Below, piece by piece: positions 37,566 to 56,449 of a stretch of DNA of 63,281 nucleotides. The notes under the pieces are model-generated. The model saw only the letters and a program-made list of their open reading frames with translations, did no database searches and had not been told where the DNA came from. A program made the position numbers and the translations under genes. Positions within the stretch are counted from its first letter, which is position 1, and the number at the start of each line of letters is the position of its first letter. The DNA comes from Candidatus Cloacimonadota bacterium (GTDB taxonomy: Bacteria; Cloacimonadota; Cloacimonadia; Cloacimonadales; JAIOQZ01), in assembly GCA_021108395.1 (NCBI GenBank), contig JAIOQZ010000030.1:1-63281 (forward strand). Reading direction: 5' to 3'.

Positions 37566-38828
37566 TTGAGTCTGAATATTCGTAGAAACATCAAATCTGC
37601 CAGATTCAGACAGATTATCTCTCTCTATGGCGCCACTCTGCTTTCGATCGTGTTGGGCGTTGGCGTCAGCAAACTCAACACGCATCTGCTGACCCCTCTC
37701 GAATATGGAAACCTGAAGTACATCGAAAAAATCTTCGTTATCGGCACAACGATTCTCTCCTTCGGGTTGTTCACTACAATAAAATCTCTCATCCCCAGAA
37801 TCAGTAGTAGCGCTCGTAAAGGGAGATTCCTCGGCGCCAGTCTCGTGATTCTGCTGGCTGTCAGTGGGATATTGACACTCTGTTTGATTGGGTTTGCGTT
37901 CATACAGCCGCTTCTATTTGAGCAGGATCTTCGCTGGTTCCTTCTCATCTCTTCGTTTCTGGCAATTGCAATAGCGGGTGAAAGGTTTCTTCAGTCTGTC
38001 CTCACCGGCGACAACGAGATACAAAAACTATCCTTGTTCAGGCTTCTACCTCGGATACTCAACATCGTATTTATTCTTCCTTTTCTCTGGTTTTTCACTT
38101 TTAATGTAACCTACGCCTGGTTTGCAAAGCTTATCGGCATCCTCATAGCTTTCATAATTATTTATGCGGGGCTGCGTCCGAGATTTGGAGGGCTGAGAAC
38201 GAACGTAAATCTGATACTGCGCCATAACAAAACGTTTGGCCTGCATATCTATACAGGCGCCCTATTCGGCGTTCTCAGCGGTCAGCTTGCGGTTGTTTTT
38301 ATCAGTTATTTCACCAGAGACAACACATATGTGGGCTATTTCTCGCTGGCCAATATGACTACGATGCCTCTGATGCTGGTTCCGTCGATTGTCGGCGAAA
38401 CCTTTTTCAAGGATTTTGCCCGCAGCAAGTGCATCAAGAAGAAGATATTATCATCAACAGTTTTGATTTCCAGTTTTACGCTCGTTCTGTTCTTTCTCAC
38501 CATCAAGCCAGTTATGCTTCTGTTGTTTGGCCAGGAGTTTGCAATTGCAGCCGATCTTGCCCGAATTCTGGTAATCGGCAAAATACTCTACGGATTTGCA
38601 GATATCTTTAATCGGTTCCTCAGCGCTCACCGCATGGGAAAATACATTCGAAACAGCGCGATAATGACAGGTATCGTCAGCTTTCTCGGTAATGTCTTCG
38701 CAATCAAACTACTGGGAGTTAACGGGGCGGTGCTGACGGTCGTGGCGGCAGGTTCAACTTACTTGATGATGTGTATTTATTATTACCGGAAGTTCATCAG
38801 AACTTCTGCAACGCCTCCTGGCCCTTAA
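37566..38828 (+). CDS. Polysaccharide flippase (Wzx-like, MOP superfamily)
   Basis: A 420-residue membrane protein with about twelve predicted helices that would flip lipid-linked oligosaccharides across the inner membrane. The N-terminal pattern LNTHLLTPLEYGNLKYI and the repeated Leu/Ile-rich helices match the polysaccharide_synt family. A TTG start is used with AGGGAG five bases upstream. Immediately after its stop begins a stump of an epimerase gene, so the next gene in the ancestral cluster has been deleted. Confidence 0.85.
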   Translation: MSLNIRRNIKSARFRQIISLYGATLLSIVLGVGVSKLNTHLLTPLEYGNLKYIEKIFVIGTTILSFGLFTTIKSLIPRISSSARKGRFLGASLVILLAVSGILTLCLIGFAFIQPLLFEQDLRWFLLISSFLAIAIAGERFLQSVLTGDNEIQKLSLFRLLPRILNIVFILPFLWFFTFNVTYAWFAKLIGILIAFIIIYAGLRPRFGGLRTNVNLILRHNKTFGLHIYTGALFGVLSGQLAVVFISYFTRDNTYVGYFSLANMTTMPLMLVPSIVGETFFKDFARSKCIKKKILSSTVLISSFTLVLFFLTIKPVMLLLFGQEFAIAADLARILVIGKILYGFADIFNRFLSAHRMGKYIRNSAIMTGIVSFLGNVFAIKLLGVNGAVLTVVAAGSTYLMMCIYYYRKFIRTSATPPGP

Positions 38829-39099: not shown

Positions 39100-41097
39100 A
39101 TGAGATTAAATGACGAGTTCCTTTACAAACCAACTAAGAAACAAGTCATTGTCAGATCAATTGACGAGTACAAATTGAGTTACTGGTTGCTCATGAAGCT
39201 CAAACGATTTCACAATAATTTGTTACGGGTTATATTGCCATCTATTCGCAGGCGTATCGCCAAGCTAATATGTCAGAATAGCCAGTCGGTGGACTGGGAT
39301 GTGTTACCCATTCAGAAGCATCACCCGGAGGCTGTCAATGTTGACTCGGTTGTTGCTGCTGCCGATATGGCGCTTCAAGGAGTGTTTGACGTTTTAGGCT
39401 CCGGTCCGGTGCAAACCTCGTCGCCACCCTGGCACACCGACATCATCAGTGGCTATCACTGGAAACCTGGCGCATATTATCTTTTCTACCCGATCATCAA
39501 GGGCAATAACTCAGATATAAAAATACCTTGGGAAATCAGCCGCATGCATCCATTGCTGGTGGTGGGTCAGGCATATCAACTGACAAAAGATGAGAAATAC
39601 GCCAGGTTTTTTGTTTGGCTTGTCAGCGACTGGATTCAGCGGAATCCACTTCGTAGAAGCGTCAATTGGCGCTGTGCAATGGATGTGGCGATACGGGCTG
39701 TGAACATCATGTGGGCTTACCGCTTCTTCGAAGCATCACCCTCCCTCACCGATGAATCACGCCGTAAGATACTGACCAGCCTGTATGAACACGGCTATCA
39801 TATCAGACGGGAACTCGAGAAGGCTTGGAAGTATAACCATAATCACTATTTGTCCGACCTGTGCGGGTTAATGCATCTTGGACTGTTGTTCGAGGAAGTG
39901 GGAGAGGGAAAGAAGTGGTTGGAGTTCGCTAAGCACGAGTTGTTTACCGAGATACGGCTTCAGATATTGCCAACCGGTTCAACGTACGAGCGTTCCATCA
40001 ACTACCATCGTCTCGTCACCGAAATATGTCTCGTTTCTATTCTGTTGCTACACCGGAACGGACACGAGATTCCCCTCGATATCTCGTATCGGCTGCATCA
40101 AATGCTTCTTTTCATCGCGGCATATCTCAAGCCGAACGGGATGGCGCCCGTGATTGGCGACCAGGATGACGGCCGGTTGCTTCCGTTCGATCAGGCGGTA
40201 AACCTTGACCATCGTTACTTGTTGTGCACAGGGGCAATTTTGTATAATGACCCCTATTTGAAAGCTCGATCTGAGCGCTTCTGGACTAGTGCAAGTCATT
40301 ATATTGGCGTCGGCGCCAAAACAGCGTTCGATTTGATTCCAGACAGCCAAATCACACCTTGCAGTCAGTCATTTCCTGATGCCGGATTCTATATCATGAA
40401 ACATGATGACAATTACATATTCATCAATAACAGTGGGCAGGGACGATATCCCGAGGTGTGCCCGGCGGCGCACACTCACAGTGATATCCTGTCGTTTGAA
40501 CTTGTCGTAAACGGGCATGACATATTAGTCGACACTGGCAGTTATGTATATTCTCCTGACCCGGAAGCCCGCGTCTTTCACCGATCCACGAAAATGCATA
40601 ACACGGCGACGGTGGATGGGCTGGATCAGAATAAACTGTCCACTGCCAACGTATTCTGGTTTCAACGAGAGGCTGTTGCCACGACGCTCAGATGGAATTC
40701 CACTCCCACCCGTGACGAGTTCGAGGGTGAACACGACGGCTTCACACGATTGCCGGATCCGGTTGTACACAGGCGAAGTATTGTTCTTGACAAGAAACCT
40801 TTCTGCATGAATTTGTGCGATTCGTTCACCGGCTCTCAGGAACATCGTGTCTGTTTGCATTTTCACTTTGCGCCAGAGGTTTCAGTCGAAGAAGTCGATG
40901 AAGGTTTTCTCGCGATTGTCGAAAATACAAAAGTGAAAATGATGTTTGAATCGGAAAATCCGATAGAAGCAAAACTTGAAGATAGCTTCGTATCCAGAAG
41001 CTACGGATCCCGTCAACAAGCACAGGCGCTTACTGTGTTGGTCAGCGCGGTTGGCGCAATCTCGATCCGGACAAAGATTACATGTGAGGATCTATAA
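39100..41097 (+). CDS. Heparinase II/III-like protein (alginate lyase family)
   Basis: A 665-residue protein with an N-terminal alpha/alpha-toroid region and a C-terminal beta-sandwich that contains the family signature: AAHTHSDILSFELVVNGHDI, then VDTGSYVYSPDP, then FHRSTKMHNTATVDG. There is no signal peptide, although related lyases are exported. Homologues in exopolysaccharide loci cleave or trim uronic-acid-containing polymers. It overlaps in context with the bi-domain oxidoreductase (one base between them), a pairing common in such loci. GGGAATC precedes the ATG. Confidence 0.82.
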   Translation: MRLNDEFLYKPTKKQVIVRSIDEYKLSYWLLMKLKRFHNNLLRVILPSIRRRIAKLICQNSQSVDWDVLPIQKHHPEAVNVDSVVAAADMALQGVFDVLGSGPVQTSSPPWHTDIISGYHWKPGAYYLFYPIIKGNNSDIKIPWEISRMHPLLVVGQAYQLTKDEKYARFFVWLVSDWIQRNPLRRSVNWRCAMDVAIRAVNIMWAYRFFEASPSLTDESRRKILTSLYEHGYHIRRELEKAWKYNHNHYLSDLCGLMHLGLLFEEVGEGKKWLEFAKHELFTEIRLQILPTGSTYERSINYHRLVTEICLVSILLLHRNGHEIPLDISYRLHQMLLFIAAYLKPNGMAPVIGDQDDGRLLPFDQAVNLDHRYLLCTGAILYNDPYLKARSERFWTSASHYIGVGAKTAFDLIPDSQITPCSQSFPDAGFYIMKHDDNYIFINNSGQGRYPEVCPAAHTHSDILSFELVVNGHDILVDTGSYVYSPDPEARVFHRSTKMHNTATVDGLDQNKLSTANVFWFQREAVATTLRWNSTPTRDEFEGEHDGFTRLPDPVVHRRSIVLDKKPFCMNLCDSFTGSQEHRVCLHFHFAPEVSVEEVDEGFLAIVENTKVKMMFESENPIEAKLEDSFVSRSYGSRQQAQALTVLVSAVGAISIRTKITCEDL

Positions 41098-41098
41098 T

Positions 41099-43252
41099 AT
41101 GAAGCAGCTATTTCAAGCGGCTGGCCGCATCTTAGTTGAAAATGTGCCGGCGCCAACTTTGGATCACGGGGAAGTCCTCGTTCAGGTTCATTTCAGCCTG
41201 ATCAGCACCGGTACAGAGACATCATCGATGCGCAAGCAAGCCGAGATGTCGTTTGGAGATAAGGTTTCCGATACGATGAAAAAAGTAGACCAGGTGAAAA
41301 CGCTCGTTCGTGAGAAAGGCCTATCGACAGCCGCCAATAAAGTTCACGAAAAGCTTTTTTCAACCAGTGTGGATGACAAGATGACTGCAAAGGGTTATAG
41401 CAACGCTGGCATGGTGATTGACATTGGCGCGGGGGTGACACGTTTCAAGCCCGGCGACCGTGTAGCCTGCGCAGGTTCCGGCTATGCCTCACACGCAGAA
41501 TTTGTGTGTGTGCCAGAGAACCTTGTTGCTCACGTTGATGACTCTGTCGATTTACAGAAGGCAGCTTTCACTACTGTAGGTTGCATCGCGATGCACGGTA
41601 TTCGACGTGCTGCAGTCACACCCGGAGAGATTGTCGTTATCAGCGGCTTGGGATTACTCGGGCTCATTGCGGTTCAAATTGCAAAAGCCTGGGGACTTAA
41701 AGTCATTGGTATCGACCTTAAGGAACATCGTCTAAATCTTGCCCTCGATGTGGGTGCAGATGCAGTTTTCATGGCCGATAGACAGGACCTGGTTCAACAA
41801 TGTATAGCCTTCACTGGCGGTCAGGGAGTGGACGCTGTTATAGTATCTGCCGCCACATCCAGTACGGATCCTGTGCACGATGGTTTTGAGATGTGCAGAA
41901 GAAAGGGGCGCGTTGTTATTGTCGGTGATGTGGGAATGGATCTTCGGCGTGACCTGATGTACAATAAAGAGCTCGACTTATTGATGTCTACTTCCTATGG
42001 CCCTGGCCGCTACGACTCCAATTACGAGGAAAAAGGGCAAGAGTACCCGTTAGGTTACATTCGTTGGACAGAAAATCGCAATATGCAGGAGTTCTTGCAT
42101 ATGCTGAAGGTGAAGACAGTGGATACATCAATGCTTGTACACGCTGTTCTTCCGATTGAAAGAGGCGCCGAGGCTTTCAAGATTCTTGTGGACGAACGCA
42201 ACTCAATCGCAGTGTTGCTGCAATATTCACAGGAACCCGAGCAGAAACAATCAGATTTGTCCAAGCGCCTTGATTTACATGTCTTGAATAAATGCGAAGG
42301 AAAAATCGGTGTGGGCGTAATTGGCGCGGGGGGATTTATGTCACGCAACATAATACCCCACATCATGTCTCTATCCGATTCATGCAAGGTAATCGGCATA
42401 TGCAATAAAACATCTGCAAGCGCTAAACAAAAAGCCAAGCGGTATAACGCAGACTATGCTACTACCGATTTCCGAGAGATCATACAGGATAGCAATATTG
42501 ACGCTGTCTTCATTGGAACGCATCACAATACACACGCTATGCTAATATGTGAGGCGCTTGCTGCCGGTAAACATGTCTTTTGCGAAAAACCATTGGCTAT
42601 GAACGAGACGCAACTTGATAGCATCCTCTCTGCGCTGGAAAATTCCGACCGCCAGCTGGCTGTAGGCTTCAACAGGCGTTATGCCCCGATGATTGTTAAG
42701 ATGCGCGAAGTGATTTCACGAAAGGTCACCCCTGTGATGGTGCAATACCGCGTAAATGCCGGACACATCCCACTCTCAAGTTGGGTGCAAAATGAAGAGA
42801 TTGGTGGTGGTAGAATCATTGGTGAAGGCTGCCACTTCGTCGATACGATCAGCTACCTTGTCGATTCGCGACTCGTAGATATTCAAGTCGCTGGTCTGCC
42901 AGTTAATGGCGCTGGAATAATAGCCAAGGACAACTATAACGTGCTTCTCCGATTCGAGAACGGATCGGTGGGTTCACTGCTGTACACCTCCCTCGGAGGA
43001 AAAAGTCTTGAAAAGGAGCGAATTGAGGTATTCTGCCACGGAGGTTCGCTCGTGCTGGATAACTTCATGTCACTTACATGTTACAATACTGGCGACAAAA
43101 ACATTTCCTCCCGGAAGATGGAAAAAGGGTTCACGCAGGAAATTGAGCAGTTTATGCTACTGCTACAGAACAAACCAAATCATTGTATCAAGATCGATGA
43201 CATCGTGTCGGCTACACGAGCAACTTTTTTCATCAAAGCACTGTATGAATAA
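41099..43252 (+). CDS. Bi-domain oxidoreductase: zinc-type alcohol dehydrogenase fused to GFO/IDH/MocA dehydrogenase
   Basis: A 717-residue fusion. Residues 1 to about 390 are a medium-chain dehydrogenase/reductase (GYSNAGMVIDIGAG, ISGLGLLGLIAVQIAKAWGL for cofactor binding). Residues 410-717 are a GFO/IDH/MocA domain with VGVIGAGGFMSRNII and the sugar-dehydrogenase signature EKPLAMNETQ. The fused form may channel a nucleotide sugar between two redox steps. The start follows GAGGATCT and the heparinase-like stop. A longer frame into that gene is not supported. The end overlaps the next glycosyltransferase by eight bases. Confidence 0.85.
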   Translation: MKQLFQAAGRILVENVPAPTLDHGEVLVQVHFSLISTGTETSSMRKQAEMSFGDKVSDTMKKVDQVKTLVREKGLSTAANKVHEKLFSTSVDDKMTAKGYSNAGMVIDIGAGVTRFKPGDRVACAGSGYASHAEFVCVPENLVAHVDDSVDLQKAAFTTVGCIAMHGIRRAAVTPGEIVVISGLGLLGLIAVQIAKAWGLKVIGIDLKEHRLNLALDVGADAVFMADRQDLVQQCIAFTGGQGVDAVIVSAATSSTDPVHDGFEMCRRKGRVVIVGDVGMDLRRDLMYNKELDLLMSTSYGPGRYDSNYEEKGQEYPLGYIRWTENRNMQEFLHMLKVKTVDTSMLVHAVLPIERGAEAFKILVDERNSIAVLLQYSQEPEQKQSDLSKRLDLHVLNKCEGKIGVGVIGAGGFMSRNIIPHIMSLSDSCKVIGICNKTSASAKQKAKRYNADYATTDFREIIQDSNIDAVFIGTHHNTHAMLICEALAAGKHVFCEKPLAMNETQLDSILSALENSDRQLAVGFNRRYAPMIVKMREVISRKVTPVMVQYRVNAGHIPLSSWVQNEEIGGGRIIGEGCHFVDTISYLVDSRLVDIQVAGLPVNGAGIIAKDNYNVLLRFENGSVGSLLYTSLGGKSLEKERIEVFCHGGSLVLDNFMSLTCYNTGDKNISSRKMEKGFTQEIEQFMLLLQNKPNHCIKIDDIVSATRATFFIKALYE

Positions 43253-44694: not shown

Positions 44695-45813
44695 ATGAAA
44701 ACAATCCACCTCGTTGTGGGAGCAAGACCAAACTTCATGAAGATTGCGCCGTTGCACCACGAGCTTTTGAAGTACCCTGATGAGTATGCTATTCGACTCA
44801 TTCACACCGGACAGCACTATGATAAGCGTATGAGCCAGTTCTTTTTCGATGATTTGGGCCTGCCCAAACCAGACGAATATCTTGGTGTCGGTTCTGGTCG
44901 CCACGGAGAACAGACTGCACGCATTATGGAGCGCTATGAGAAAGTTTTGCTGAAAGAACGCCCTGACCTTGTGGTTGTGGCAGGTGATGTTAACAGTACA
45001 GTTGCCTGTGCCTTGGACGCTGTTAAGATGCATATTCCTGTGGCGCATCTCGAAGCAGGTTTACGCAGCTTTGATCGTGGAATGCCGGAAGAGATCAATC
45101 GCATAATAACTGACAGTATCAGTGATTGGCTACTTACTCCATCACAAGACGGTGACGCGAATCTGCTGGCAGAGGGAATTGCGCCAGAGCGTATCCACTT
45201 TGTTGGCAACATCATGATCGACTCGCTGGTGCAGCACCGTGAACGCGCTGTCGTCTCGACAATCCTCAATAATCTGGGCCTCAAATCACATAACTATATT
45301 CTCATTACGTTGCATCGGCCATCCAATGTTGACAACCGTGAAGGTCTTGATACGATTCTATCCGCTTTCGAGCAGCTTGCTCCCGAAATCAACCTCGTGT
45401 TTCCCATTCATCCCCGCACTCTCAAGCGACTGGATGAATTCGGCTTACGCCAACGACTGGACGCTATCGAAGGTCTGATGATTATCGAGCCCGTGGGCTA
45501 TTACGACTTCCTGAGATTGCAGATGGAAGCGCGGCTTGTACTCACCGATTCCGGCGGCATTCAAGAAGAGACCACTTTTTTTGGGGTGCCATGTCTCACG
45601 TTACGACCCAACACCGAACGCCCTGTAACAATTGAAGAGGGCACGAACCTTCTCGTGCCCCTGCACACTGCAGGCATTGTTGACCAGTCACATAAAGTAT
45701 TGTATGGAAAGTCAGAACCGGCCCGTATACCCGACCTCTGGGACGGCCACACAGCCGAGCGCATTGTTGCGTTATGGCGTCGGGACTATGACCGGCTTGG
45801 TAGCTTTGGATAA
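44695..45813 (+). CDS. wecB: UDP-N-acetylglucosamine 2-epimerase (non-hydrolysing)
   Basis: It interconverts UDP-GlcNAc and UDP-ManNAc. The 372 residues are typical: GARPNFMKIAPL, HTGQHYD, VVAGDVNSTVACAL, HLEAGLRSFDRGMPEEINR, TLHRPSNVDN, DSGGIQEE and LRPNTERPVT. It likely supplies ManNAc-derived sugars for the surface polymer. Its position after a glycosyltransferase and before a CapA-like gene fits. The gene symbol reflects family, since allosteric control typical of E. coli WecB cannot be judged. Confidence 0.93.
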   Translation: MKTIHLVVGARPNFMKIAPLHHELLKYPDEYAIRLIHTGQHYDKRMSQFFFDDLGLPKPDEYLGVGSGRHGEQTARIMERYEKVLLKERPDLVVVAGDVNSTVACALDAVKMHIPVAHLEAGLRSFDRGMPEEINRIITDSISDWLLTPSQDGDANLLAEGIAPERIHFVGNIMIDSLVQHRERAVVSTILNNLGLKSHNYILITLHRPSNVDNREGLDTILSAFEQLAPEINLVFPIHPRTLKRLDEFGLRQRLDAIEGLMIIEPVGYYDFLRLQMEARLVLTDSGGIQEETTFFGVPCLTLRPNTERPVTIEEGTNLLVPLHTAGIVDQSHKVLYGKSEPARIPDLWDGHTAERIVALWRRDYDRLGSFG

Positions 45814-45858: not shown

Positions 45859-46992
45859 GTGAGCAACAACAGCCTGCACGTTTTTCTGACAGGCGATTAT
45901 TGCCCCATCGGGCCGATAGAGAGACTGTGTGCCGAGCATGACTGGAACGGCCTGTTCGGTGATGTGCTGCCTGTGCTGCTCGACAAGGATATCTCTATCG
46001 TCAACCTCGAATGCCCGCTGACCGACAAAGCGCGGCCAATCAGCAAGACGGGGCCGAACCTCATTGCGCCTGCAAGCCACATCGAAACGCTGAACGCGAT
46101 GGGCGCAGACGTGGCGGCGCTGGCCAATAACCACATCCTCGACCAGGGAGCGCAGGGTTGCCTCGACACGATCGAGACTTGCCTGGCAAACGGCATTGCA
46201 ACTGTCGGCGCCGGCGCAAATAATGCCGCGGCGACAACCCCGCTCATTCTCGAACAGAATGGCCTTCGCCTCGCCGTTATCAACGTGGCGGAGAACGAGT
46301 GGTCAACCACCTGGGGCGACACACCCGGGGCGGCTCCGCTCGATCCGGTGAAAAACGCCCGCATCATCCGCCAGGCTGCCGAAAAGACAGACGCGGTGCT
46401 GGTTATCGTGCATGGTGGCCACGAGTTGTATTCGCTGCCCAGTCCCCGCATGGTTCGTCTCTATCGCTTTTTCGTGGAGATGGGGGCGGCAGCCGTCATC
46501 GGGCATCACACCCATGTGGTCGGCCCCTGGGAAGTGTACAGGGGCGCGCCCATCTATTACAGCCTGGGCAACTTCGTGTTCCCATGGACGAACAAGACTC
46601 TTGCCTGGCGACGGGGCATGTTGGTACGACTGACATTTCGCCGCGGCGAGCCGGTTGACCATGAACATATCCACATTGAACAGAACGAAAGCGGGCCTCT
46701 GATAAGACTTTTGAGCGACAAAGAAAACCGCGATGCCGAGGTGCAGCTTGAGGCGTTGAACGACATTCTGTCCGACGATTCTCGGTTGCATGAGCGCTGG
46801 GAGCGGTGGTGCAAGCAACGAAGCAGAAGCGCCATCGCCGGAATTCTGGGGCTGAATAGATGGCAGCGCGCGCTATACAAACGCAGACTGTGGAAACCTG
46901 ATCGACGGAGACTGCAACGTCTGCTCAACATCATCCGCTGCGAAGCGCACCGCGATGTGCTGCAACACAGCATCGAGATGGAAAACAAATAG
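45859..46992 (+). CDS. CapA-like protein (PgsA/CapA metallophosphatase-like family)
   Basis: A 377-residue protein with the CapA core: GDYCPIG, NLECPLTD, AALANNHILDQG, VIVHGGHE, VIGHHTHVV and YSLGNFVFPW. These residues form a calcineurin-like metal site. There is no N-terminal signal or anchor, whereas PgsA homologues of poly-gamma-glutamate systems are membrane bound. In that system CapA acts in polyglutamate export. Here its neighbours include two ATP-grasp ligases, which may install amide-linked groups. GGAGGGTATAG precedes the GTG. Confidence 0.85.
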   Translation: MSNNSLHVFLTGDYCPIGPIERLCAEHDWNGLFGDVLPVLLDKDISIVNLECPLTDKARPISKTGPNLIAPASHIETLNAMGADVAALANNHILDQGAQGCLDTIETCLANGIATVGAGANNAAATTPLILEQNGLRLAVINVAENEWSTTWGDTPGAAPLDPVKNARIIRQAAEKTDAVLVIVHGGHELYSLPSPRMVRLYRFFVEMGAAAVIGHHTHVVGPWEVYRGAPIYYSLGNFVFPWTNKTLAWRRGMLVRLTFRRGEPVDHEHIHIEQNESGPLIRLLSDKENRDAEVQLEALNDILSDDSRLHERWERWCKQRSRSAIAGILGLNRWQRALYKRRLWKPDRRRLQRLLNIIRCEAHRDVLQHSIEMENK

Positions 46993-47006
46993 TCACGAAC
47001 AACGAC

Positions 47007-47219
47007 GTGACATCGACTATCGCTCGATTATCCTCTTTTGTTCGCCTGGCGAATATTCTTGACAATCGGTCGTATCACGAAGATTATGCTCAAATGGATT
47101 CGTCAGTTTTTATGGAGCGGTTTTCCATCGAATCGATGGTTCGCGTCTATCGCAACATCATAGACGAATCCTCGAAATATAAAATTGCACGAAAACAGTA
47201 TCATACTAACTCATTGTGA
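47007..47219 (+). pseudogene. C-terminal stump of a glycosyltransferase (GT4-like)
   Basis: A frame of 70 codons with no clear ribosome site. Near its centre MERFSIESMVRVYRNIIDE matches the usual last helix of GT4 enzymes (R/E-F-S-I-E-x-M-V-x-x-Y). The rest of the enzyme is gone, so this is a relic of a glycosyltransferase deleted between the CapA-like and ATP-grasp genes. Confidence 0.5.
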
Positions 47220-47229
47220 GACAAAGCAC

Positions 47230-48294
47230 ATGAAATACAGCTTCGCCATTTTGCGTAACGAAAATGAAATTGATCATCAGTTCTGGATAGAAGCATGTCA
47301 GGCTCAGAATGATCGCGTTCAGTTTGATGTTATCGATCTCACTCGCTCGGACTGGCTACAGCAGGTTACCCGCAAACCTTACGATATGCTGATAGCGCGT
47401 CCTCCTGGCATAACATCCTGGTTCAAGCAGCTTTACGATGAACGTATTTATATCATTCACGACGTATTGAAGATTCCAATCTATCCCAGTTGTCAGGAAA
47501 TCTTCATGTATGAGAACAAGCGAATGATGGCATATTGGCTTGCAGCCAACAAACTGCCGTATCCTCACACATGGGTGTTTTACAATCAGGACGAAGCGCT
47601 CGAGTTCAGTCGTACATGTCAATACCCGCTGGTTGCGAAAACAGCTATTGGTTCAGCAGGATCGGGTGTCAAAATCCTTACATCGCCCGGGGCGACAAAG
47701 CGCTACATCAATCAGGCCTTTTCCAACCGAGGCATTACAAGAAAATGGGGGCCGAACCTTCGAAAAGTGGGGCTGGTGCAGAGAGCGAAAAAGCGCCTCA
47801 AAAAGCCTGGGGAATACCTGAAATTCATCACGAAGCATCGAGGGCAGGTCGCCGCCGACGCCCAATGCTGGTTTGTAATATTTCAAGAATATCATAAAAT
47901 ATCGTTTGAATGGCGAGCTGTGAAAATCGGCGATTCCTATTTCGCGCACAAGAAGATTGCTACACGAGGGAACTTAATCAGTGGTTCATCGCAGGTTTCG
48001 TGGGATGGCCCATCTCCCGAATTGCTTGATTTTCTGCGTAATACCAGCGAATCACACGGCTTGCAGGCTCTTGCTTTCGACCTCTTTGAGACGGAAGATG
48101 GTAAATTTCTGATCAACGAACTGCAATGCTATTTCGGTTCGTTCAATCCTCACCAAATGATTCTGGACGGAAAGCCGGGGCGTTACAGGCATATCGATAA
48201 TGCCTGGCGCTTTGAGCCAGGCGAGTTCAATACCTGCAATTCCCACGATTTGCGTTTGCTGCACATATTGCAGCTTCTGGATGGGGAAAAGTAA
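47230..48294 (+). CDS. ATP-grasp family protein (polysaccharide-cluster ligase)
   Basis: A 354-residue ATP-grasp-like enzyme. The pattern YPLVAKTAIGSAGSGVKIL is the ATP-binding lysine/glycine loop, and near the end FDLFETEDGKFLINELQC supplies the acidic and Asn metal ligands. It begins with AILRNENEIDHQFW, a pre-ATP-grasp domain. Such enzymes form amide or peptide bonds through acyl phosphates. It is related in layout, but not obviously in detail, to the second ATP-grasp protein 2.3 kb away on the other strand. The substrate is unknown. Confidence 0.8.
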   Translation: MKYSFAILRNENEIDHQFWIEACQAQNDRVQFDVIDLTRSDWLQQVTRKPYDMLIARPPGITSWFKQLYDERIYIIHDVLKIPIYPSCQEIFMYENKRMMAYWLAANKLPYPHTWVFYNQDEALEFSRTCQYPLVAKTAIGSAGSGVKILTSPGATKRYINQAFSNRGITRKWGPNLRKVGLVQRAKKRLKKPGEYLKFITKHRGQVAADAQCWFVIFQEYHKISFEWRAVKIGDSYFAHKKIATRGNLISGSSQVSWDGPSPELLDFLRNTSESHGLQALAFDLFETEDGKFLINELQCYFGSFNPHQMILDGKPGRYRHIDNAWRFEPGEFNTCNSHDLRLLHILQLLDGEK

Positions 48295-48350
48295 AACAAG
48301 CAGTATCGCACAATCCGCTGACGCCCCTATCGTGACACCCATTATGCCAT

Positions 48351-48370
48351 TTCGCCAGCTCGCTGGCGAA
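48351..48370. terminator. Hairpin between convergent genes
   Basis: A perfect 8-bp stem TTCGCCAG-CTCG-CTGGCGAA between the 3' ends of the ATP-grasp and deacetylase genes. It could end transcription from both sides, although no U-run follows. Confidence 0.4.
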
Positions 48371-48399
48371 CCACTGCCCTCCTGCTCTTGTCAACTCTG

Positions 48400-49410
48400 T
48401 CAATCTTTTTTCAGCATATAGTCGGCACAATCGGCCATGGTGGCAATCCAGAGATCTCCGCTCTCACGCCTACTGGCGGCATAACGCAGCAGAGACGGCA
48501 TGATTGTGGCAAGGAACCAGCTGTCGATGTCGGGGTGAAACCAGAAATGGACACAGGTTCGTGTCTTGATGGCTTTGTCGATGTGACTGCACAGGTTCTT
48601 TATCATGTAGTCGTGGCTCCAGCCAAATTCATTGTCGCCCAGTCCTTTACTGGGAGAAACAACCAGGCCCATCTCGTCGATATAGGGGTAGTGAAGCACA
48701 CATTGTGACTTGCGACGGTAATTGGTGAACCCGTGTTTCTTCAGGATTTCGACATTGCCGTATGTTCCGCCGGGAAAGACCATCGACTTGAGCTCGATGC
48801 CCCATTCCCTCGCTGTTTCAACACATGCCTTAATCTCGTCGTCGGCCACTTCTGGTGGGCAGTTTCGGTCGCTGAAGTCCATGTGCGAGAAACTGTGGCA
48901 ACCGATTTCATGGTCAACCGGCGAAGCGAATATCGCTTCCAGCAAATCGGGGGCATACCAGTGGGGATCACGTTTCCAGTCAGTGCCGGGATCGTGGTCG
49001 AACCAATCGCCGCTGGTGAATCGCCAGTGGTCGTCGAAATGGGGGATGCGTCGCATCCAGTCGTGATCAACACGATTGCAGGAGCGCAGGAAGAGGTGTC
49101 CCACAGTTGCCCATGTGACTGGAATGTCGTAGGTTTCAAACAGCTTCAGCAGGGCAGGGAAGTTGTCACGGGTGCGTTGCGCCATACCCAGTGGGTCGTT
49201 GCAGGTCTTGGAATACCGATAGGCCCAGGCGAGTTCAAAATCAGCGGAGAACAGCAATGCTCCCCGTGCCGAACCCGGAAATGTCCGTTGGGCTTTTGGC
49301 GGGTCCTGGGCGACGCGCGGCAGGACCGAGAAGGTGTAGGGTGCCTTGGTCAGCCAGGTTTGCACTGGTTTTGGCAGTTTTTTCCGCATTTGACGGTATT
49401 GCTTCAACAA
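48400..49410 (-). CDS. Polysaccharide deacetylase (NodB-homology)
   Basis: A 336-residue CE4-type deacetylase that would remove N-acetyl groups from GlcNAc-type residues. Asp57 in FSADFE is the likely catalytic base, and His172/His176 in HSFSHMD bind the metal. FPGGTYGNVEIL is the next block. Its N-terminus has no clean signal peptide, so a cytosolic or membrane-associated step is possible. It overlaps the following GT4 gene (upstream on this strand) by seven bases, giving a three-gene minus-strand operon with an ATP-grasp gene. Confidence 0.85.
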   Translation of the reverse strand: MLKQYRQMRKKLPKPVQTWLTKAPYTFSVLPRVAQDPPKAQRTFPGSARGALLFSADFELAWAYRYSKTCNDPLGMAQRTRDNFPALLKLFETYDIPVTWATVGHLFLRSCNRVDHDWMRRIPHFDDHWRFTSGDWFDHDPGTDWKRDPHWYAPDLLEAIFASPVDHEIGCHSFSHMDFSDRNCPPEVADDEIKACVETAREWGIELKSMVFPGGTYGNVEILKKHGFTNYRRKSQCVLHYPYIDEMGLVVSPSKGLGDNEFGWSHDYMIKNLCSHIDKAIKTRTCVHFWFHPDIDSWFLATIMPSLLRYAASRRESGDLWIATMADCADYMLKKD

Positions 49411-50573
49411 TGGGGGTTTCCCTTATGTATTGAGTCGCCGTGTTCATCGCATTCTTTCAACCGAGGAATGCGCTCGCTTCGCTGAATGCTGTACACAATC
49501 GACTCATAGTTTGTATGCATCGCCTGTAGGGCGAACCGCGACAGTCCGTAACGCCGTGATTCCCGCCCCATTTCCTGGCAAAGCTGTTCATTGTCGAGTA
49601 ACGTTTTCAGGTGACAGAAGAGTTGTTCATCGTCTTTATAGTCAAACAGGAGAGCATTCTTCGCGCTCGTGGTTTCTGGGATACCGCCCACGCGAGTGGC
49701 CACAATGGGCAGGCCCTGCATGGTCGCTTCAAGGATAGCGTTTGAACAGCCCTCTCCCAGGCTCGAATGGACAAATATATCGGCGATACGCAGGTACTCG
49801 GGTACGCGATTTGTCTGTCCCACCAGCACCACGCAGTCTTTCAGCCCCTGTTCGACGATGCAGTTTTCAATTACTGTGCGCATCGGCCCGGTGCCGATAA
49901 CGACGTATTGAAACCGATAGCCCGCGCGCTGCAATTTTCCCAATGCCTTCATAACCGTGATGTAGTCCTTGAATGGCACAAGATTGGAGATAGACAGCAG
50001 ACAGGGGCCTTCGGCGGTGTTCCCCAGAAGTTCTGAACGCAATTGCGTGCGTGCTGCGTCTTCCAGGCGAACCGAGAAACGCTCTTCGATACCGTTGTAT
50101 AGGATGTGGCCGCGTTTCAGGCCATTTGCCCTCAAGCCTGCCTTCGAGTTGGCCACAACGTAACGGCTGAGGTGCAGCAGGAACATGCGCCGCGTGTGCT
50201 TTTTTGTTTTCAATCGAATACCATGGCGCACGGTGCTGTTTACAACACGGGCTCCGCACAACAGGCCGACAGCCCAGGCCATCAACAGCTCCACATACCC
50301 CCAGGCCCATATCTGGTTCGGCTTGAAACGGCGACAGACGCGCCACAGCTCGATAACATATCTCAGGTGGTTGCCACCAGGCAATCGCTGGCTGCGGCTG
50401 CCCAGGTTGTACTCGTCGATGTATCCCGTTACGCCAGAGCTGTCTTTCCAGTACACGACAAAATGATCGAGCTTTCCAGTAGCGTTGTGGCCGGCCAGCA
50501 AGGCAATCTGTCTTTCTCTGCCGCCACGCTTCATGGATGACGCCAGGTGGAGAATGCGAACCGGTTTGTTCAT
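49404..50573 (-). CDS. Glycosyltransferase family 4
   Basis: A 389-residue GT4 enzyme: the N-terminal ILHLASSMKRGGRERQIALL is the acceptor-side Rossmann start, and the C-terminal half has LLSISNLVPFKDYITVMKAL, YVVIGTGPMR and HSSLGEGCSNAILEAT with the donor-binding glutamates. It is coupled to both neighbours by short overlaps (four bases with the ATP-grasp gene, seven with the deacetylase). Donor and acceptor are unknown. Confidence 0.9.
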   Translation of the reverse strand: MNKPVRILHLASSMKRGGRERQIALLAGHNATGKLDHFVVYWKDSSGVTGYIDEYNLGSRSQRLPGGNHLRYVIELWRVCRRFKPNQIWAWGYVELLMAWAVGLLCGARVVNSTVRHGIRLKTKKHTRRMFLLHLSRYVVANSKAGLRANGLKRGHILYNGIEERFSVRLEDAARTQLRSELLGNTAEGPCLLSISNLVPFKDYITVMKALGKLQRAGYRFQYVVIGTGPMRTVIENCIVEQGLKDCVVLVGQTNRVPEYLRIADIFVHSSLGEGCSNAILEATMQGLPIVATRVGGIPETTSAKNALLFDYKDDEQLFCHLKTLLDNEQLCQEMGRESRRYGLSRFALQAMHTNYESIVYSIQRSERIPRLKECDEHGDSIHKGNPHC

Positions 50574-51610
50574 GCAAATTCTTCTGAGAAGTCTGGTTGC
50601 TCAAGCTCAGGCATTTTCAGGAAATCGACGAGATGCAGATATTCAGGCCAGAAGTGGCCCTCGTGATAATTCATATCGGAGTCCCAGAAGCCGGCACACT
50701 TGAACACGGCTAAATCCTGGTAAGTGTAGGATATTTCACAAAAGAACGGTTGGCCGGAGGCGTCGTACAGAAAATCGTAAGTCATTGTCTGAAAACGTTG
50801 CTCGCGGCTGATTCGTAATGCAATTTCAAGACAGTTGCGATCGATTTTCTCGCAATTGTATTCAATTTTGCCGCTGCCGGAGGCTCTGAAATCGTTTGGG
50901 CGGTTGTAGCGCAGAAAGCCGAAGGCGCGATCACCGATAGTTGTGATCCGCATGTCAAATTCATTGCCCGGCATGAATTTCTGGAACATTATATAGTTTT
51001 TATCACGCATCCAGAAGCGATTGCTCTCATGTCCTGCGGCCTTTTTTTGCATCCGACGAATAAATTGGGTGGTACGGTGACGCAAAGACTGGTCGCTCCA
51101 GTGGAACTTTCCTGACATCAGGCCGGGACCAAACATCTGGCGCACCAGCTTTTCGCCCTGCTGTCGTGTTTTCACCAGCACGACATTGGAGGAACCGGCG
51201 CCGCCCTTGAGCTTGAACACGACGGGGTAATCGGTGGTTTTGAGCCATTCGAGGGCATCGCTACGTTCCCAGAACACCCAGCTGGGAACCATTGGGTAAC
51301 CATGAGCATCGCATAGGTATTTCTGTCGCAGTTTATCGTCGTAGCTCCACCAGGTTGCACGATCCGGGAAACATGGGATATTCAAGTGTTCTTCCACCAC
51401 CGGCAAAATCGTCTTGATCATCTGGTGGTCGAAGCTATAGTGTCCCCATGTGTTGATGAGGAAATCGAAACCCTTGATTTTATCGATCAACCCAGGATCG
51501 CTCGGGCTGATAAGTATGGGTGCAATATCGTTGTGGACGAGGATTTTCCGCATCCGTTCACCCCAGAAGTTCAGCTCACCATGCTGGAGCGTTAGTATGC
51601 CAATGTTCAT
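50570..51610 (-). CDS. ATP-grasp family protein, second paralogue in the polysaccharide locus
   Basis: A 346-residue ATP-grasp enzyme. YPVVFKLKGGAGSSNVVLVK is the glycine-rich ATP loop, FMPGNEFDMRITTIGDRAFG lies in the central sheet, and the acidic/Asn metal ligands are in TYDFLYDASGQPFFCEISY. The N-terminal ILTLQHGELNFWGERM is a pre-ATP-grasp Rossmann region. It heads the operon with the GT4 and the deacetylase, so it should act on the same glycan. A carboxyl group on a sugar or an amino acid is the likely substrate type. Confidence 0.8.
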   Translation of the reverse strand: MNIGILTLQHGELNFWGERMRKILVHNDIAPILISPSDPGLIDKIKGFDFLINTWGHYSFDHQMIKTILPVVEEHLNIPCFPDRATWWSYDDKLRQKYLCDAHGYPMVPSWVFWERSDALEWLKTTDYPVVFKLKGGAGSSNVVLVKTRQQGEKLVRQMFGPGLMSGKFHWSDQSLRHRTTQFIRRMQKKAAGHESNRFWMRDKNYIMFQKFMPGNEFDMRITTIGDRAFGFLRYNRPNDFRASGSGKIEYNCEKIDRNCLEIALRISREQRFQTMTYDFLYDASGQPFFCEISYTYQDLAVFKCAGFWDSDMNYHEGHFWPEYLHLVDFLKMPELEQPDFSEEFA

Positions 51611-51913: not shown

Positions 51914-52858
51914 ATGCAGTACTTAGTCACTGGCGGCTCAGGATTCATCGGCTCAAACATCGTTCGCACTCTTCTCACTCGTGGCGAAAATGTTCGCGTT
52001 CTGGATAACTTCTCAACTGGGAAACGGGAGAACATCTATAGTCTGCTCGACAACCCGAACCTGCAACTCATCGAGGGTGATCTGCGCAGCTTTCACATCG
52101 TGCGAAACGCTGTCAAAGACGTTGACTACATCCTGCATCAGGGCGCTCTTCCATCCGTGCCGCGTTCTATCAATGACCCGATTACCACCAACGACGTGAA
52201 TATTCTGGGTACGCTCAACATTCTCGAAGCCGCCCGTGAAATGGGTATCAAGCGTGTTGTATATGCCTCGTCATCCTCTGTTTACGGTAACAGTGAAAAG
52301 CTGCCCAAGACCGAGGATATGCCCATCTCGCCTCTGTCGCCTTATGCGCTCAGCAAGTACACCGCCGAACGTTATTGCCAGCTTTATTCGCAGCTATATG
52401 GCCTTGAGACCGTCTGCATTCGTTACTTCAACGTGTTCGGGCCATACCAGGACCCAACTTCGCAATACAGCGCCGTGATTCCCAAATTCATTCGCCTCAT
52501 CGCCGCTGGCGAACGCCCTGTTATCTTCGGAGACGGCCTGCAATCGCGCGATTTCACTTTCGTGGCCAACAACGTCGAGGCCAATCTGTTGGCAGCGAAG
52601 GCGCCAGGCATTGGTGGCGATGTGTTCAATATCGCCTGTGGCGAGCGCTACACGCTTCTCGACCTGGTCGATCTCATAAACAAAATCATGGGAACGAACA
52701 TCGAGCCAATTTTTGCCGAATCCCGAGCCGGTGACGTGAAACACTCTATGGCCGGTATTGACAAGGCAAAACGACTGATGGGCTACACCGCAAACACGAA
52801 ATTTGAGGCCGGCCTTCGTCAAACTGTAGCCTTCTTCTGTCCGAAAGCTTCTGTCTGA
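51914..52858 (+). CDS. NAD-dependent nucleotide-sugar epimerase (UDP-GlcNAc/GalNAc or UDP-glucose 4-epimerase group)
   Basis: A short-chain-dehydrogenase-type epimerase with 314 residues. TGGSGFIGSNI (from residue 6) binds NAD, and the catalytic Tyr144/Lys148 lie in SPYALSKYTAERY with the Ser cluster VYASSSSVYGN. RYFNVFGPYQDP is typical of the WbpP/Gne-like branch that epimerises UDP-GlcNAc derivatives. AAGGAAATATTC precedes the ATG. It supplies hexosamine or hexose precursors for the surface polymer. Confidence 0.9.
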   Translation: MQYLVTGGSGFIGSNIVRTLLTRGENVRVLDNFSTGKRENIYSLLDNPNLQLIEGDLRSFHIVRNAVKDVDYILHQGALPSVPRSINDPITTNDVNILGTLNILEAAREMGIKRVVYASSSSVYGNSEKLPKTEDMPISPLSPYALSKYTAERYCQLYSQLYGLETVCIRYFNVFGPYQDPTSQYSAVIPKFIRLIAAGERPVIFGDGLQSRDFTFVANNVEANLLAAKAPGIGGDVFNIACGERYTLLDLVDLINKIMGTNIEPIFAESRAGDVKHSMAGIDKAKRLMGYTANTKFEAGLRQTVAFFCPKASV

Positions 52859-52878: not shown

Positions 52879-53994
52879 ATGCAGCAAGAGTCTCGACAGC
52901 AGCCAAGAGCCGACAGACGTGTTATCTGCTTATGCGTGAGAACGCTGCTCAAGGGCGGCGCAGAGAAACAAGCGCTGCTTCTCACCAAGCTTCTGCAAGT
53001 TCACCACGATGCATTCTGTGTTGTTTTTCACGGCGAGCAGGTTGACGAGCAGAATCGGCAATTCATCGAGCGAGAAAGTATTCCAGTCGTCAGACTCACC
53101 GGTTCATTGCCCATGAAATTTGTGAAGCTCTTTCGCCTGTTGCGTTCGCGTCGGGTGGAGGTTTTATTCACCTACCTGGCGCTGTGCAACGTAGCAGGTA
53201 CCCTCCTGGCCAAGCTTGCCGGTGTTCGCTATGTCGTTAACGGTGTGCGCAGTTCCCGCTTCAGCGCTCACAAAATAGTACTGCAAAGGTTCATTCACAA
53301 CTGGCTGGCCCACCGCACGGTTTGCAATAGCCACAGTGGGTATAATGAAGTAATCAGACTCGGCTTTCGCACAAACAAACTATTGGTGATACCCAATGGT
53401 ATCGAGGTACCTTCTGAGCCTCTGATAAGGCGGCCTTCGTCAGAAATGACGACCATCCTTTCGGTAGGCCGCTACAGCCCTCCGAAGGACTATCCAACTG
53501 CATTGAGTGCGTTTGCTCAGTTAGCGCAGCGTCACCCTGAGCAGCAGATGCAATATATTATCATCGGCTTCGGTGAGCTGGAAGTGGCGTTACGGGAGAA
53601 GATTGGGCGACTCGGGCTTGAGGGCGCTGTTCACCTCGTGATCAATCCACCCGACGTGCACAAGTATTACCGGCAAGCCGATATTTACCTGTGCTCGTCC
53701 AGCTTCGAGGGCCTGTCCAACAGTATTATGGAAGCGATGGCCTATGCTTTGCCTGTTGTGGCCACTGATGTGGGCGACAATGGCAAATTGGTATTGAACA
53801 ACCGGAGCGGTTTTTTTTGCGCCAAAGAAGATGCGGCAGGGCTTGCAAGCGCTTTGGAGAAGCTCGTGGATTCCAGCGAAGCCAGGGAATCGTTTGGCAA
53901 AGCTGGTTGGCGACACCTACAATCTGGTTATAGCGAGCAGGCGCTGTTGGAGCGTTATCTGAGCCTGATCAACGAGCTGGTTGTGAAGACCTGA
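52879..53994 (+). CDS. Glycosyltransferase family 4
   Basis: A 371-residue GT4 enzyme: CVRTLLKGGAEKQALLLTKL at the N-terminus (GGAE acceptor loop), then LLVIPNGIEV, ILSVGRYSPPKDYPTALSAF, IGFGELE and SSSFEGLSNSIMEAMAYALP with the EX7E donor-site glutamates. It follows the epimerase after 20 bases and converges with the next glycosyltransferase. Linkage unknown. Confidence 0.9.
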   Translation: MQQESRQQPRADRRVICLCVRTLLKGGAEKQALLLTKLLQVHHDAFCVVFHGEQVDEQNRQFIERESIPVVRLTGSLPMKFVKLFRLLRSRRVEVLFTYLALCNVAGTLLAKLAGVRYVVNGVRSSRFSAHKIVLQRFIHNWLAHRTVCNSHSGYNEVIRLGFRTNKLLVIPNGIEVPSEPLIRRPSSEMTTILSVGRYSPPKDYPTALSAFAQLAQRHPEQQMQYIIIGFGELEVALREKIGRLGLEGAVHLVINPPDVHKYYRQADIYLCSSSFEGLSNSIMEAMAYALPVVATDVGDNGKLVLNNRSGFFCAKEDAAGLASALEKLVDSSEARESFGKAGWRHLQSGYSEQALLERYLSLINELVVKT

Positions 53995-54037: not shown

Positions 54038-55162
54038 CTACGGCAACATCCTTTTGTAAAGGTGATCGTATTGGGCGGCCACGACGTCCCAGTTGAACAC
54101 CTCAGCGAGTTTTTTTCTTGCCTGCTTCGCCTTCTGCGCCATTTCCTCTGGGTGATCAAGCGCCCATTCCAGCTTCTGTTGCAAATCTTCGGCGTTGTCG
54201 TTTTTGAACAGCAATACTTCATCGTCCGAGAAAACGTCCATGTTCTCAGGAATATCGCTACATACGATGGGCGTGTCAAGGGATGCAGCTTCCAGCAGCA
54301 TGCTCGACATCGCTTCCAGCGTTGAGGGAAACACGAACAACTGTGCATGTTCGATGTAACTCATAAGAAGCGCCTGATCTTTGATAAGACCGGTGAATGT
54401 CACTGGCAGGCCTTCGCTCAGTCGCTCGATTCGCTTCTTGTATTCCTGGTCCTGGTTCAAGTCACCCGCCACAATGATTTTTCCATCGAACTGCATCTTA
54501 CCCAACGCCTGTAACAATGTGTGCAGGCCTTTGATGCGCAATATTCTGCCAGCGGCAAAGAAGATATAGCCCTGATGAGAGATTGCGGGCAGTTCGCCAT
54601 GGTCGGTTTCAACGGCATTCGGGATGTAGTGCACATGTCGTTTTGTCCGCTTCTGATATTGTTCCTGGATTGATTTGGCCACGGTTGTCATCGCATGAGC
54701 CGGGCACTTGAGATAGATAATCTCCATCAACCGGAAGAAAGCTTTTTCGGTTGATGACCATTTGTCAGCTTTGAATGTAATGCCATGCGAAGTGGAGATA
54801 ACCTTGTACTTCAGCTTCAGCAGTGGGATGATGAACGCTGCATCGATGTGATGCACGTGCACGATATCATAATTGCCTACGAACAGGCAATGCAGTGTAG
54901 CTTTGAAATAATAGAACAACGTGCTCAGTTTTTTATGACGCAACTTCTTGAGAACGATTTGGGGGCACTCGTCATAAATCCCGTTCTGGTTGGCATGCGA
55001 AGAGAGGGCGTAAACGGTGAAATCATACGAACCATGCAGCTTGTGAATAAGGCTTTCCACTACTCGAGCTGATCCGCCGAAGGCCGGCAATCCTTTACAT
55101 CCAATAACAGCGATCCTGGGTTTCACCGAAGTATTCTTATCGTAGAGAGTGCTGGCGCCCAT
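54038..55162 (-). CDS. Glycosyltransferase family 4
   Basis: A 374-residue GT4 enzyme, with IGCKGLPAFGGSARVVESLI near the start (the G-G-x-A/S-R-V-V pattern of WbnH/WsaF-type rhamnosyl or galactosyl transferases), VHVHHIDAAFIIPLLKLKYK, YIPNAVETDHGEL and FPSTLEAMSSMLLEAASLDTP. Its ATG immediately follows the polymerase-like gene's stop, so the two form one minus-strand unit at the edge of the locus. Confidence 0.9.
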   Translation of the reverse strand: MGASTLYDKNTSVKPRIAVIGCKGLPAFGGSARVVESLIHKLHGSYDFTVYALSSHANQNGIYDECPQIVLKKLRHKKLSTLFYYFKATLHCLFVGNYDIVHVHHIDAAFIIPLLKLKYKVISTSHGITFKADKWSSTEKAFFRLMEIIYLKCPAHAMTTVAKSIQEQYQKRTKRHVHYIPNAVETDHGELPAISHQGYIFFAAGRILRIKGLHTLLQALGKMQFDGKIIVAGDLNQDQEYKKRIERLSEGLPVTFTGLIKDQALLMSYIEHAQLFVFPSTLEAMSSMLLEAASLDTPIVCSDIPENMDVFSDDEVLLFKNDNAEDLQQKLEWALDHPEEMAQKAKQARKKLAEVFNWDVVAAQYDHLYKRMLP

Positions 55163-56449
55163 TTAATGTATTGTGTTTTCTATCTGCTTTATTTCGAGTT
55201 GATTGCCATTGATGGTTTGATTCTGCATTTCATGTATCTGTTGTTCGTAATACCGCTTGAACACCATCGCGAGGATATGACCCATCTGGAATACAAATAA
55301 ATTCACCAGAGTGAAATTAGCAATAACAAACGTTAGCATCCCAACAAACGGTCCCCATTTTCCCAGTACTTTGCCAATCCTCCACAACCGGCGCATAAGG
55401 AAGAAGATAAAGCCGATATATAGAAAACCGCCGATTAGCCCATAGTGATAGAACAATGCCAGCCAACCGACGTGAATCTGTGAAGACCGGCCGCCGATTT
55501 CCTGAAGAAGCTCACTGGATAATGTACTGCCTGCCCCAACTAACATGCTTTTCGGAAAGAGCTTAAAGAACACATCGAAAGCCAGAAAGCGGGTTGATAC
55601 ATCGGAAAGAATACGCGAATGGATGAAGTAATTCATATCGATTCCGAAAATGAAGCCACCCAAATACACGAGAAATGCAGAGAGGATGATGAAGCTGACG
55701 TATTTTAGCACTCGAACAAGCATGAAGCCTTTTGCCTGAGTGAAAAGAGTGAGAACTATGAGAAACGACAACATTACATATCGCGTCTTGGTTAGAAACA
55801 CCACAACAAGAACCATGGAGAAGTACAAAATGGATTGCCTTTTATTTTTCTTGATTTCAGGAATCAGAAGCGCAAAGATAATTGGTAGAGAAAAACCAAG
55901 TGCACTGAAACCGAGCCAGGAGAATATGGATGGATGCCGGTATTGAATGCCGTGCTCCAGTCCCCAATGGCTCTGGCGAAACAGTTCTGACACTAAGAAA
56001 TGTCTGTCGAAGAATACTTGAATCAGCACAACGATAAAGGAAATGATGATTGTGAATTTCATCAATTTGGTCAGCGTATTGATAAATCTTTCCGAGAAGT
56101 CAACGTTCTCGATAAGGAAAAAAGAATATATGGCGAAGACATAGATATTCTTTATAAAGAGAAGAATAATTTCTTGTGGTGATGCTTCTGTGATGTCGTA
56201 AGTCCATAATAGCAAAGATATACAGAATAATATGTAGAAACGCAAATACATTGGAAACCGGAAATGAGTACGGGACGTTAGGGCGCTTTCACCAATGAAT
56301 AGTACAAAAAGACATACCATTACTGCCCCGAAAAAAAGAATAGGCGCCAAACTGAGTATCATCTCAATTCCCATCGCCGCAATGGGCATTACCGCGACAA
56401 GCGCAATGGTAATGAAGAAAAACATGTGGAAAAGTGACAGTTGGCGCAT
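55163..56449 (-). CDS. O-antigen polymerase/ligase-like membrane protein (Wzy-like)
   Basis: A 428-residue integral membrane protein with about ten to twelve predicted helices. A large periplasmic loop near residues 280-330 contains the Arg- and His-bearing stretch (SRILSDVSTRFLAFD, then GGRSSQIHVGWLALFYHYGL) usual in Wzy/WaaL proteins. It would polymerise the repeat unit or ligate it to a carrier. Sequence cannot separate those two roles. It ends the locus. Confidence 0.75.
   Translation of the reverse strand: MRQLSLFHMFFFITIALVAVMPIAAMGIEMILSLAPILFFGAVMVCLFVLFIGESALTSRTHFRFPMYLRFYILFCISLLLWTYDITEASPQEIILLFIKNIYVFAIYSFFLIENVDFSERFINTLTKLMKFTIIISFIVVLIQVFFDRHFLVSELFRQSHWGLEHGIQYRHPSIFSWLGFSALGFSLPIIFALLIPEIKKNKRQSILYFSMVLVVVFLTKTRYVMLSFLIVLTLFTQAKGFMLVRVLKYVSFIILSAFLVYLGGFIFGIDMNYFIHSRILSDVSTRFLAFDVFFKLFPKSMLVGAGSTLSSELLQEIGGRSSQIHVGWLALFYHYGLIGGFLYIGFIFFLMRRLWRIGKVLGKWGPFVGMLTFVIANFTLVNLFVFQMGHILAMVFKRYYEQQIHEMQNQTINGNQLEIKQIENTIH

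Follow-up and report, generated by a model that had tools for sequence, protein, structure and literature searches.

Bacterial polysaccharides substituted with amino acids are known chemically, and few of the ligases have been identified. Here we describe a group of five genes at positions 45,859 to 51,610 of a 63,281-bp stretch of DNA from a Candidatus Cloacimonadota bacterium (GenBank assembly GCA_021108395.1, contig JAIOQZ010000030.1), the whole of which is termed the window. As the original prediction had stated, the group comprises a CapA-like protein, two ATP-grasp proteins (A and B), a glycosyltransferase (GT) of family GT4 and a polysaccharide deacetylase, all of them recovered by Pfam or NCBIfam matches and both ATP-grasp proteins at the lengths then given. 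We consider it rather probable that this group, which recurs in other phyla, decorates a surface glycan with amide-linked substituents. Its members are:

45859-46992, plus strand: CapA-like (PGA_cap) calcineurin-fold protein (PF09587, 9e-61)
47230-48294 (open reading frame (ORF) from 47185), plus strand: ATP-grasp A, LysX/RimK-like predicted carboxylate-amine ligase, 354 residues from the ATG at 47230
48400-49410, minus strand: CE4-type polysaccharide deacetylase (PF01522, 9e-8)
49404-50573, minus strand: module GT4 glycosyltransferase (PF00534, 9e-26)
50570-51610, minus strand: ATP-grasp B, LysX/RimK-like predicted ligase, 346 residues (PF08443 RimK, 1.7e-5)

By analogy, the closest tested chemistry is that of the Campylobacter jejuni capsule. 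There Cj1438C, a TupA-like ATP-grasp domain that is joined to a GT2, links serinol-phosphate by an amide bond to glucuronate on the growing capsular chain. A phosphatase, assigned to the HAD family by the title of a paper cited for it, acts next, and chain extension waits until it has done so (PMC11800379, PMC13276843). As with Cj1438C and HS19.11C, the window's ATP-grasp genes stand in a polysaccharide locus and are tied to a glycosyltransferase, to which a fusion of A in another genome (locus L139, see below) may be compared. Despite this similarity there are clear differences: A and B are LysX/RimK-like and gave no match to the TupA-like ATP-grasp Pfam family at E <= 0.001, the candidate phosphatase is a calcineurin-fold CapA instead of a HAD protein, and no serinol-phosphate genes were identified here.

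A second comparison concerns the linking sugar of Porphyromonas gingivalis and Tannerella forsythia, a 2-N-seryl or 2-N-glycyl uronamide or uronic acid. In P. gingivalis a putative CE4 deacetylase exposes the amine to which serine or glycine is then attached, and the uronamide is the work of an AsnB-type enzyme; transfer of the amino acid is ascribed to the FemAB/GNAT-like VimA, and no ATP-grasp enzyme is mentioned (PMC7468200). The window shares with this Wbp/Vim pathway the CE4 deacetylase (the role of VimE, compared by family and not by sequence), and most relatives of the module share the amidotransferase, whereas the window locus has neither a FemAB-like nor an amidotransferase gene. No FemAB/GNAT protein in the role of VimA was found among the scanned window ORFs, with PF13480 matches lying on other contigs; likewise, matches to the UDP-sugar 6-dehydrogenase family (PF03721, the role of WbpA) were found on contigs C22 and C5 and none on the window's contig, C19. 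A and B thus belong neither to the TupA-like family of Cj1438C nor to the Wbp/Vim families, the latter being set apart by their description.

Two further systems share single features or gene classes with the window. The poly-gamma-glutamate capsule operon (CapB-CapC-CapA) reported throughout the Cloacimonadota (PMC13082233) also contains a CapA-family protein, whereas that of the window has no membrane segment, and no CapB- or CapC-like gene was found among the window ORFs scanned around it. XrtA/PEP-CTERM exopolysaccharide loci likewise bring together amidotransferase, FemAB-like, deacetylase and glycosyltransferase genes, but ATP-grasp proteins such as A and B are not among the genes described for them (PMC7468200); exosortase or PEP-CTERM genes did not turn up in the Pfam scans of the window, in which no search was aimed at them. 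The occurrence of linked ATP-grasp peptide ligases in operons for surface polymers had already been predicted in general terms (PMC4431377).

Recurrence of the module and its ATP-grasp families

A pattern scan of GTDB contigs with an alignment of A returned 103 relatives, from Bacteroidota, WOR-3, Aminicenantes, Ignavibacteria, Spirochaetes, Shewanella, Sutcliffiella and others; the first such scan with B alone as query returned none. The earlier supposition that ATP-grasp enzymes are rare in polysaccharide loci is therefore not supported, the more so as a third ATP-grasp family often follows A. Sought in other genomes, the gene set was found in Cloacimonadota, Bacteroidota, Ignavibacteria and Spirochaetes. 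In the Cloacimonadota locus L042 the order on one strand is B-GT4-A-deacetylase-amidotransferase; in L043, of the same phylum, it is lyase-oxidoreductase-GT-WecB-B-GT4-deacetylase-amidotransferase-A, again on one strand, and in L051 lyase-oxidoreductase-GT-GT4-A-deacetylase. B-GT4-deacetylase-A together with the amidotransferase is found in L079 (Bacteroidales), L108 (Ignavibacteriales) and L115 (Sphaerochaetaceae). Since the same genes are neighbours in such distant genomes, their grouping goes beyond chance, and by its gene content B-GT4-deacetylase-A, usually with an asparagine-synthase-like amidotransferase, is a widespread module across several phyla. Orthologues of the module GT4 adjoin B or A in the relatives and share 31-42% identity with it over most of their length.

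The surroundings of A were counted in 86 loci to a distance of six genes, gene labels being BLAST matches (E <= 1e-6) to representatives identified by Pfam or NCBIfam. Separation of the ATP-grasp genes from polysaccharide genes, which the original prediction had named as evidence against itself, is not the pattern seen: glycan genes lie near A in 80 loci. Four of the other six contain Glyphos_transf (poly(glycerophosphate)-transferase-like) or ATPgrasp_ST (sugar-transfer-associated) genes, and another is a contig of 3.9 kb with FemAB-like genes. A further amide-forming enzyme is present in 66 of the 86; the asparagine-synthase-like amidotransferase is found in 58, a deacetylase in 39 and a FemAB-like protein in 33. 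The A protein of L139 is joined to a Glyphos_transf-type transferase-like domain, which suggests that it works on a polymer. A long frame containing A in L105 was not counted as a second fusion, as its N-terminal extension looks out of frame. In the Saprospiraceae loci L080, L083, L092 and L119, A is preceded immediately or almost immediately by FemAB-like genes, so that aminoacyl-linking enzymes of two classes might work one after the other.

Of 125 genomes from the phylum, 9 contain a match to B at E <= 1e-50, as do 24 of 393 from an order centred on the Bacteroidales. A CapA gene lies at most six genes from B in 19 of 38 loci, in nine of them directly upstream. Within the Cloacimonadota it is near B in five of nine loci, for which the probability by chance is about 1e-7 (a rough estimate, at about three CapA matches per genome). 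CapA-domain proteins of about 1000 residues also recur across the order (L048:5056-8019; G000:C28:36472), and the one in L048, which adjoins B, carries PKD and type IX secretion system (T9SS) sorting domains.

A and B share 22% identity (E 6e-14). A has no Pfam match and is recognized by the NCBIfam LysX and rimK_fam models at about 1e-8. Profile searches of the PDB (hmmsearch) with A and B gave 3vpb/3vpd as best hits, the solved relatives being ArgX, LysX, RimK and other ATP-grasp proteins. The AlphaFold models (mean predicted local distance difference test scores, pLDDT, of 84 for A and 82 for B) were in Foldseek most similar to ArgX (A, 3e-15) and to ArgX/LysX/RimK (B, 1e-15), with a probability of 1.00 for both. 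It is this proximity to ArgX/LysX/RimK peptide ligases, in profile and predicted fold, that points to carboxylate-amine ligases. Despite the similarity, both proteins score only about 35 bits against curated cut-offs of 143 (rimK_fam) and 276 (LysX), so that they are relatives and not members of those families; they also carry Gln or Ser where those families have the Mg-binding Asn, and their genes stand in glycan loci. PF13535, considered as the Pfam family of A and B, proved wrong, its sole match in the genome being on contig C17.

Mapped by alignment with the ATP, Mg and phosphate ligands of LysX and ArgX, the other site residues (Lys, Arg, Asp and Glu) are kept in both proteins: K97, K137, R229, D284 and E297 of A are invariant in all 85 A sequences, and K93, K133, D279 and E292 of B in all 37 B sequences, with R221 in 35. 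The lysines would lie on the ATP side and the arginine on the phosphate side, the two acidic residues serving as Mg ligands. A and B are probably active ligases. In the tree A, B and the third ATP-grasp group form separate clades (support 99, 99 and 100), from which A and B are read as separate, ancient families. The closest relative of the window's A is a sequence of a WOR-3 bacterium (53%) and not one of its own order, which suggests that A has moved between phyla. The third family is ATPgrasp_Ter-like; in many Bacteroidota it comes after A and a short GT and is often itself succeeded by DUF354, and it occurs in L042 (15617-16768) and about 20 more A loci.

Concerning the remaining enzymes, the CapA-like protein scores 206 bits against a cut-off of 27 for PF09587, and its metal-site residues D13, E51, N91, H92, D95, H217 and H219, which form an MslH-like pattern (D, E, N-H-x2-D, H-x-H), are invariant in nine module-linked homologues. 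In the deacetylase D57, E59, H172-x3-H176 and H292 are invariant in eight homologues, so that the CE4 Asp and HxxxH metal site are present. A hydropathy scan found no hydrophobic or membrane segment in the deacetylase (nor a signal segment there), A, B or CapA, which makes action before export likely and places the CapA-like protein probably in the cytoplasm.

Organization of the window's copy and its surroundings

In the window, B, GT4 and the deacetylase form a three-gene unit on the minus strand, with overlaps of 4 bp and 7 bp, which converges with CapA-A on the plus strand; the genes therefore constitute two transcription units and not one operon. The unit is inverted relative to CapA-A, unlike the one-strand order of the relatives. 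A search for repeats able to explain the inversion gave none that settled the matter, those present being short or imperfect. Between CapA and A lies a further frame:

46992-47218, plus strand: frame of 75 codons, probable C-terminal remnant of a second module-GT4 copy (best match E 0.018)

The best match, a weak one, is to the last 44 residues of the orthologue in L043, and the nine best are all module-type GT4s aligned at their C-termini. As a module-type GT4 directly precedes A in L046, L051 and L053, the window's copy is probably a rearranged form of the module in which an earlier GT4-A pair was broken.

The rearrangement might have gone further, a full B-GT4-deacetylase-amidotransferase-A group having been inverted and partly deleted, such that a decaying patchwork is left whose genes no longer cooperate. 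The GT4-like remnant, the opposite strands and the lack of an amidotransferase anywhere on the window's contig fit such decay. Among five GATase_7 matches in the genome, the two on contig C13 match the module-type amidotransferase at only 22-27% over partial length, so that neither looks orthologous. All five genes are intact, however, with conserved catalytic residues, and the amidotransferase is missing also from 28 of the 86 A loci, some of them on short contigs; we therefore regard decay as very unlikely. Contig C13 carries a second glycan locus (L151; G000:C13:3872-17584) with two asparagine-synthase-like genes plus GT and methyltransferase genes; one of the two is similar to the XrtA/PEP-CTERM amidotransferase (577 bits, under the cut-off of 817).

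The genome measures 2.9 Mb and is 98% complete. G+C in the polysaccharide locus is 0.45-0.53, compared with 0.55-0.63 across the 30 kb before it. The genes around A and B are those of an ordinary Wzx/Wzy-type polysaccharide locus:

33938-35962, plus strand: phosphoglycosyl transferase (Bac_transf), probable polysaccharide initiator (PF02397, 5.8e-29)
37566-38828, plus strand: Wzx-like flippase (PF01943, 1e-11)
39100-41097, plus strand: heparinase II/III-like polysaccharide lyase (PF07940, 4e-40; PF16889, 5e-32)
41096-43252, plus strand: two-domain oxidoreductase, zinc dehydrogenase plus GFO/IDH/MocA (PF00107, PF01408), syntenic in L043 and L051
43263-44510, plus strand: GT4 glycosyltransferase (PF13439, 5.9e-7)
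44695-45813, plus strand: WecB, UDP-GlcNAc 2-epimerase (TIGR00236, 330 bits, cut-off 210)
51914-52858, plus strand: NAD-dependent sugar epimerase/dehydratase, nearest TviC/GalE (PF01370, 3e-65)
52879-53994, plus strand: GT4 glycosyltransferase (PF00534, 1e-30)
54038-55162, minus strand: GT4 glycosyltransferase (PF00534, 5.5e-24)
55163-56449, minus strand: polytopic membrane protein, probable Wzy polymerase/ligase (102 windows above 1.6 in hydropathy)

The epimerase reaches 250 bits with the TviC model, under its cut-off of 760. The probable Wzy has no Pfam match and is 25% identical to a gene adjoining the module in L160. The heparinase-like lyase, found upstream of the module also in L043, L051 and L250, suggests that the polymer contains uronic acid. 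Farther upstream the window encodes a protein that combines four S1 RNA-binding domains with an extensin-like stretch rich in proline (23742-26300) and a protein of 830 residues with two lamin-tail domain matches (28662-31154).

Proposed mechanism and alternatives

The scheme proposed here draws on gene content, gene overlaps, the conservation of the module and of its catalytic residues, and the ligase-like folds; from these we infer the amide chemistry, the order of steps and the role of CapA. The reactions would take place in the cytoplasm, with lipid-linked repeat units or their precursors as substrates: GT4 would add a sugar, and the CE4 deacetylase would strip the N-acetyl group from a hexosamine. 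A and B would each use ATP to convert a carboxylate into an acyl-phosphate and couple it to an amine, one of them probably acting on the carboxylate of a uronic acid, its counterpart on either the amine exposed by the deacetylase or the substituent attached first. The resulting glycan would bear amide-linked amino acids, amino alcohols or short peptides. The substituent would then be the target of the CapA-like protein, working as a phosphatase, like Cj1435 of C. jejuni, or as an epimerase at the alpha carbon, like MslH; export and polymerisation through Wzx and Wzy would follow. Rather than a capsule, the final product could be an O-antigen, a free exopolysaccharide or a protein-anchoring lipopolysaccharide (LPS).

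The last of these borders on a different explanation, in which the locus serves type IX secretion through an A-LPS-like anchor, the deacetylase and the ATP-grasp proteins building an aminoacyl-uronic-acid linking sugar for protein C-termini. This too would be amide chemistry, of one linking sugar and not of a repeat unit, and in Porphyromonas the task falls to VimE, VimA and WbpS. The enzyme classes of the P. gingivalis and T. forsythia linking sugar (CE4, FemAB-like, AsnB-type) are the same as those around A (PMC7468200). Type IX cargo is plentiful in the genome, with 122 Por_Secre_tail and 21 Peptidase_C25 (gingipain-type) matches; one Por_Secre_tail sorting domain lies inside the window (20242-20481), and the CapA protein that adjoins B in L048 bears a T9SS sorting domain itself. 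However, no Wbp-type dehydrogenase, aminotransferase or FemAB-like gene was seen among the scanned ORFs of the window locus, the locus differs strongly from one relative to the next, and many genomes of the order lack A and B, which is not what would be expected of an essential anchor. A is present, moreover, in Shewanella and Sutcliffiella, groups not known for type IX secretion. The anchor is thus favoured by the many T9SS-type proteins of the genome and not by the content of the locus, and appears rather unlikely.

Several points weigh against amide decoration of the surface glycan. The co-occurrence counts derive from BLAST labels in gene-dense glycan loci, where many enzymes adjoin, and the window's copy, on two strands, with a probable gene remnant and lacking the usual amidotransferase, may be partly reduced. 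The third Mg ligand, Asn in RimK and LysX, is Gln in A (84 of 85 sequences) and Ser in B (35 of 37). ATP-grasp folds also cover kinases, carboxylases and thiol or hydroxyl ligases. The two proteins might therefore perform other ATP chemistry that leaves no amide on the glycan, such as phosphorylation, N-carboxylation, ester formation or the synthesis of a soluble precursor, e.g., a dipeptide. Besides the replaced Asn in both families, synapsin and inositol-phosphate kinases among the Foldseek matches of A point in this direction. Peptide ligases are nevertheless the best matches by sequence and by fold, the recurring partners are amidotransferase, FemAB-like and deacetylase genes, and the A-transferase fusion in L139 speaks for a polymer, all of which makes such chemistry decidedly improbable.

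Amide decoration remains the favoured explanation. The module itself is real and conserved, and its enzyme classes fit the function suggested in the original prediction; the amide step would follow from these by inference. The chemistry then guessed is plausible, while the gene set is common instead of rare, and the chemistry has more precedent than the original prediction supposed, namely in Cj1438C (PMC11800379) and the Wbp/Vim pathway (PMC7468200).

A more specific form of the scheme, which we judge quite unlikely, has A and B adding successive amino acids to the carboxylate or the freed amine of a sugar and CapA, with its MslH-like residue pattern, inverting an alpha carbon, such that a glycan peptide arises independently of ribosome and tRNA; if true, this stepwise peptide building would constitute a glycopeptide exopolysaccharide system shared across phyla. 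The presence of CapA in a glycan module warns against taking every CapA gene as evidence of poly-gamma-glutamate. Tied to deacetylase, amidotransferase and CapA across phyla, A and B are concrete candidates for ligases of amide-decorated glycans, and their families could permit such glycans to be predicted from the genomes of uncultured groups.

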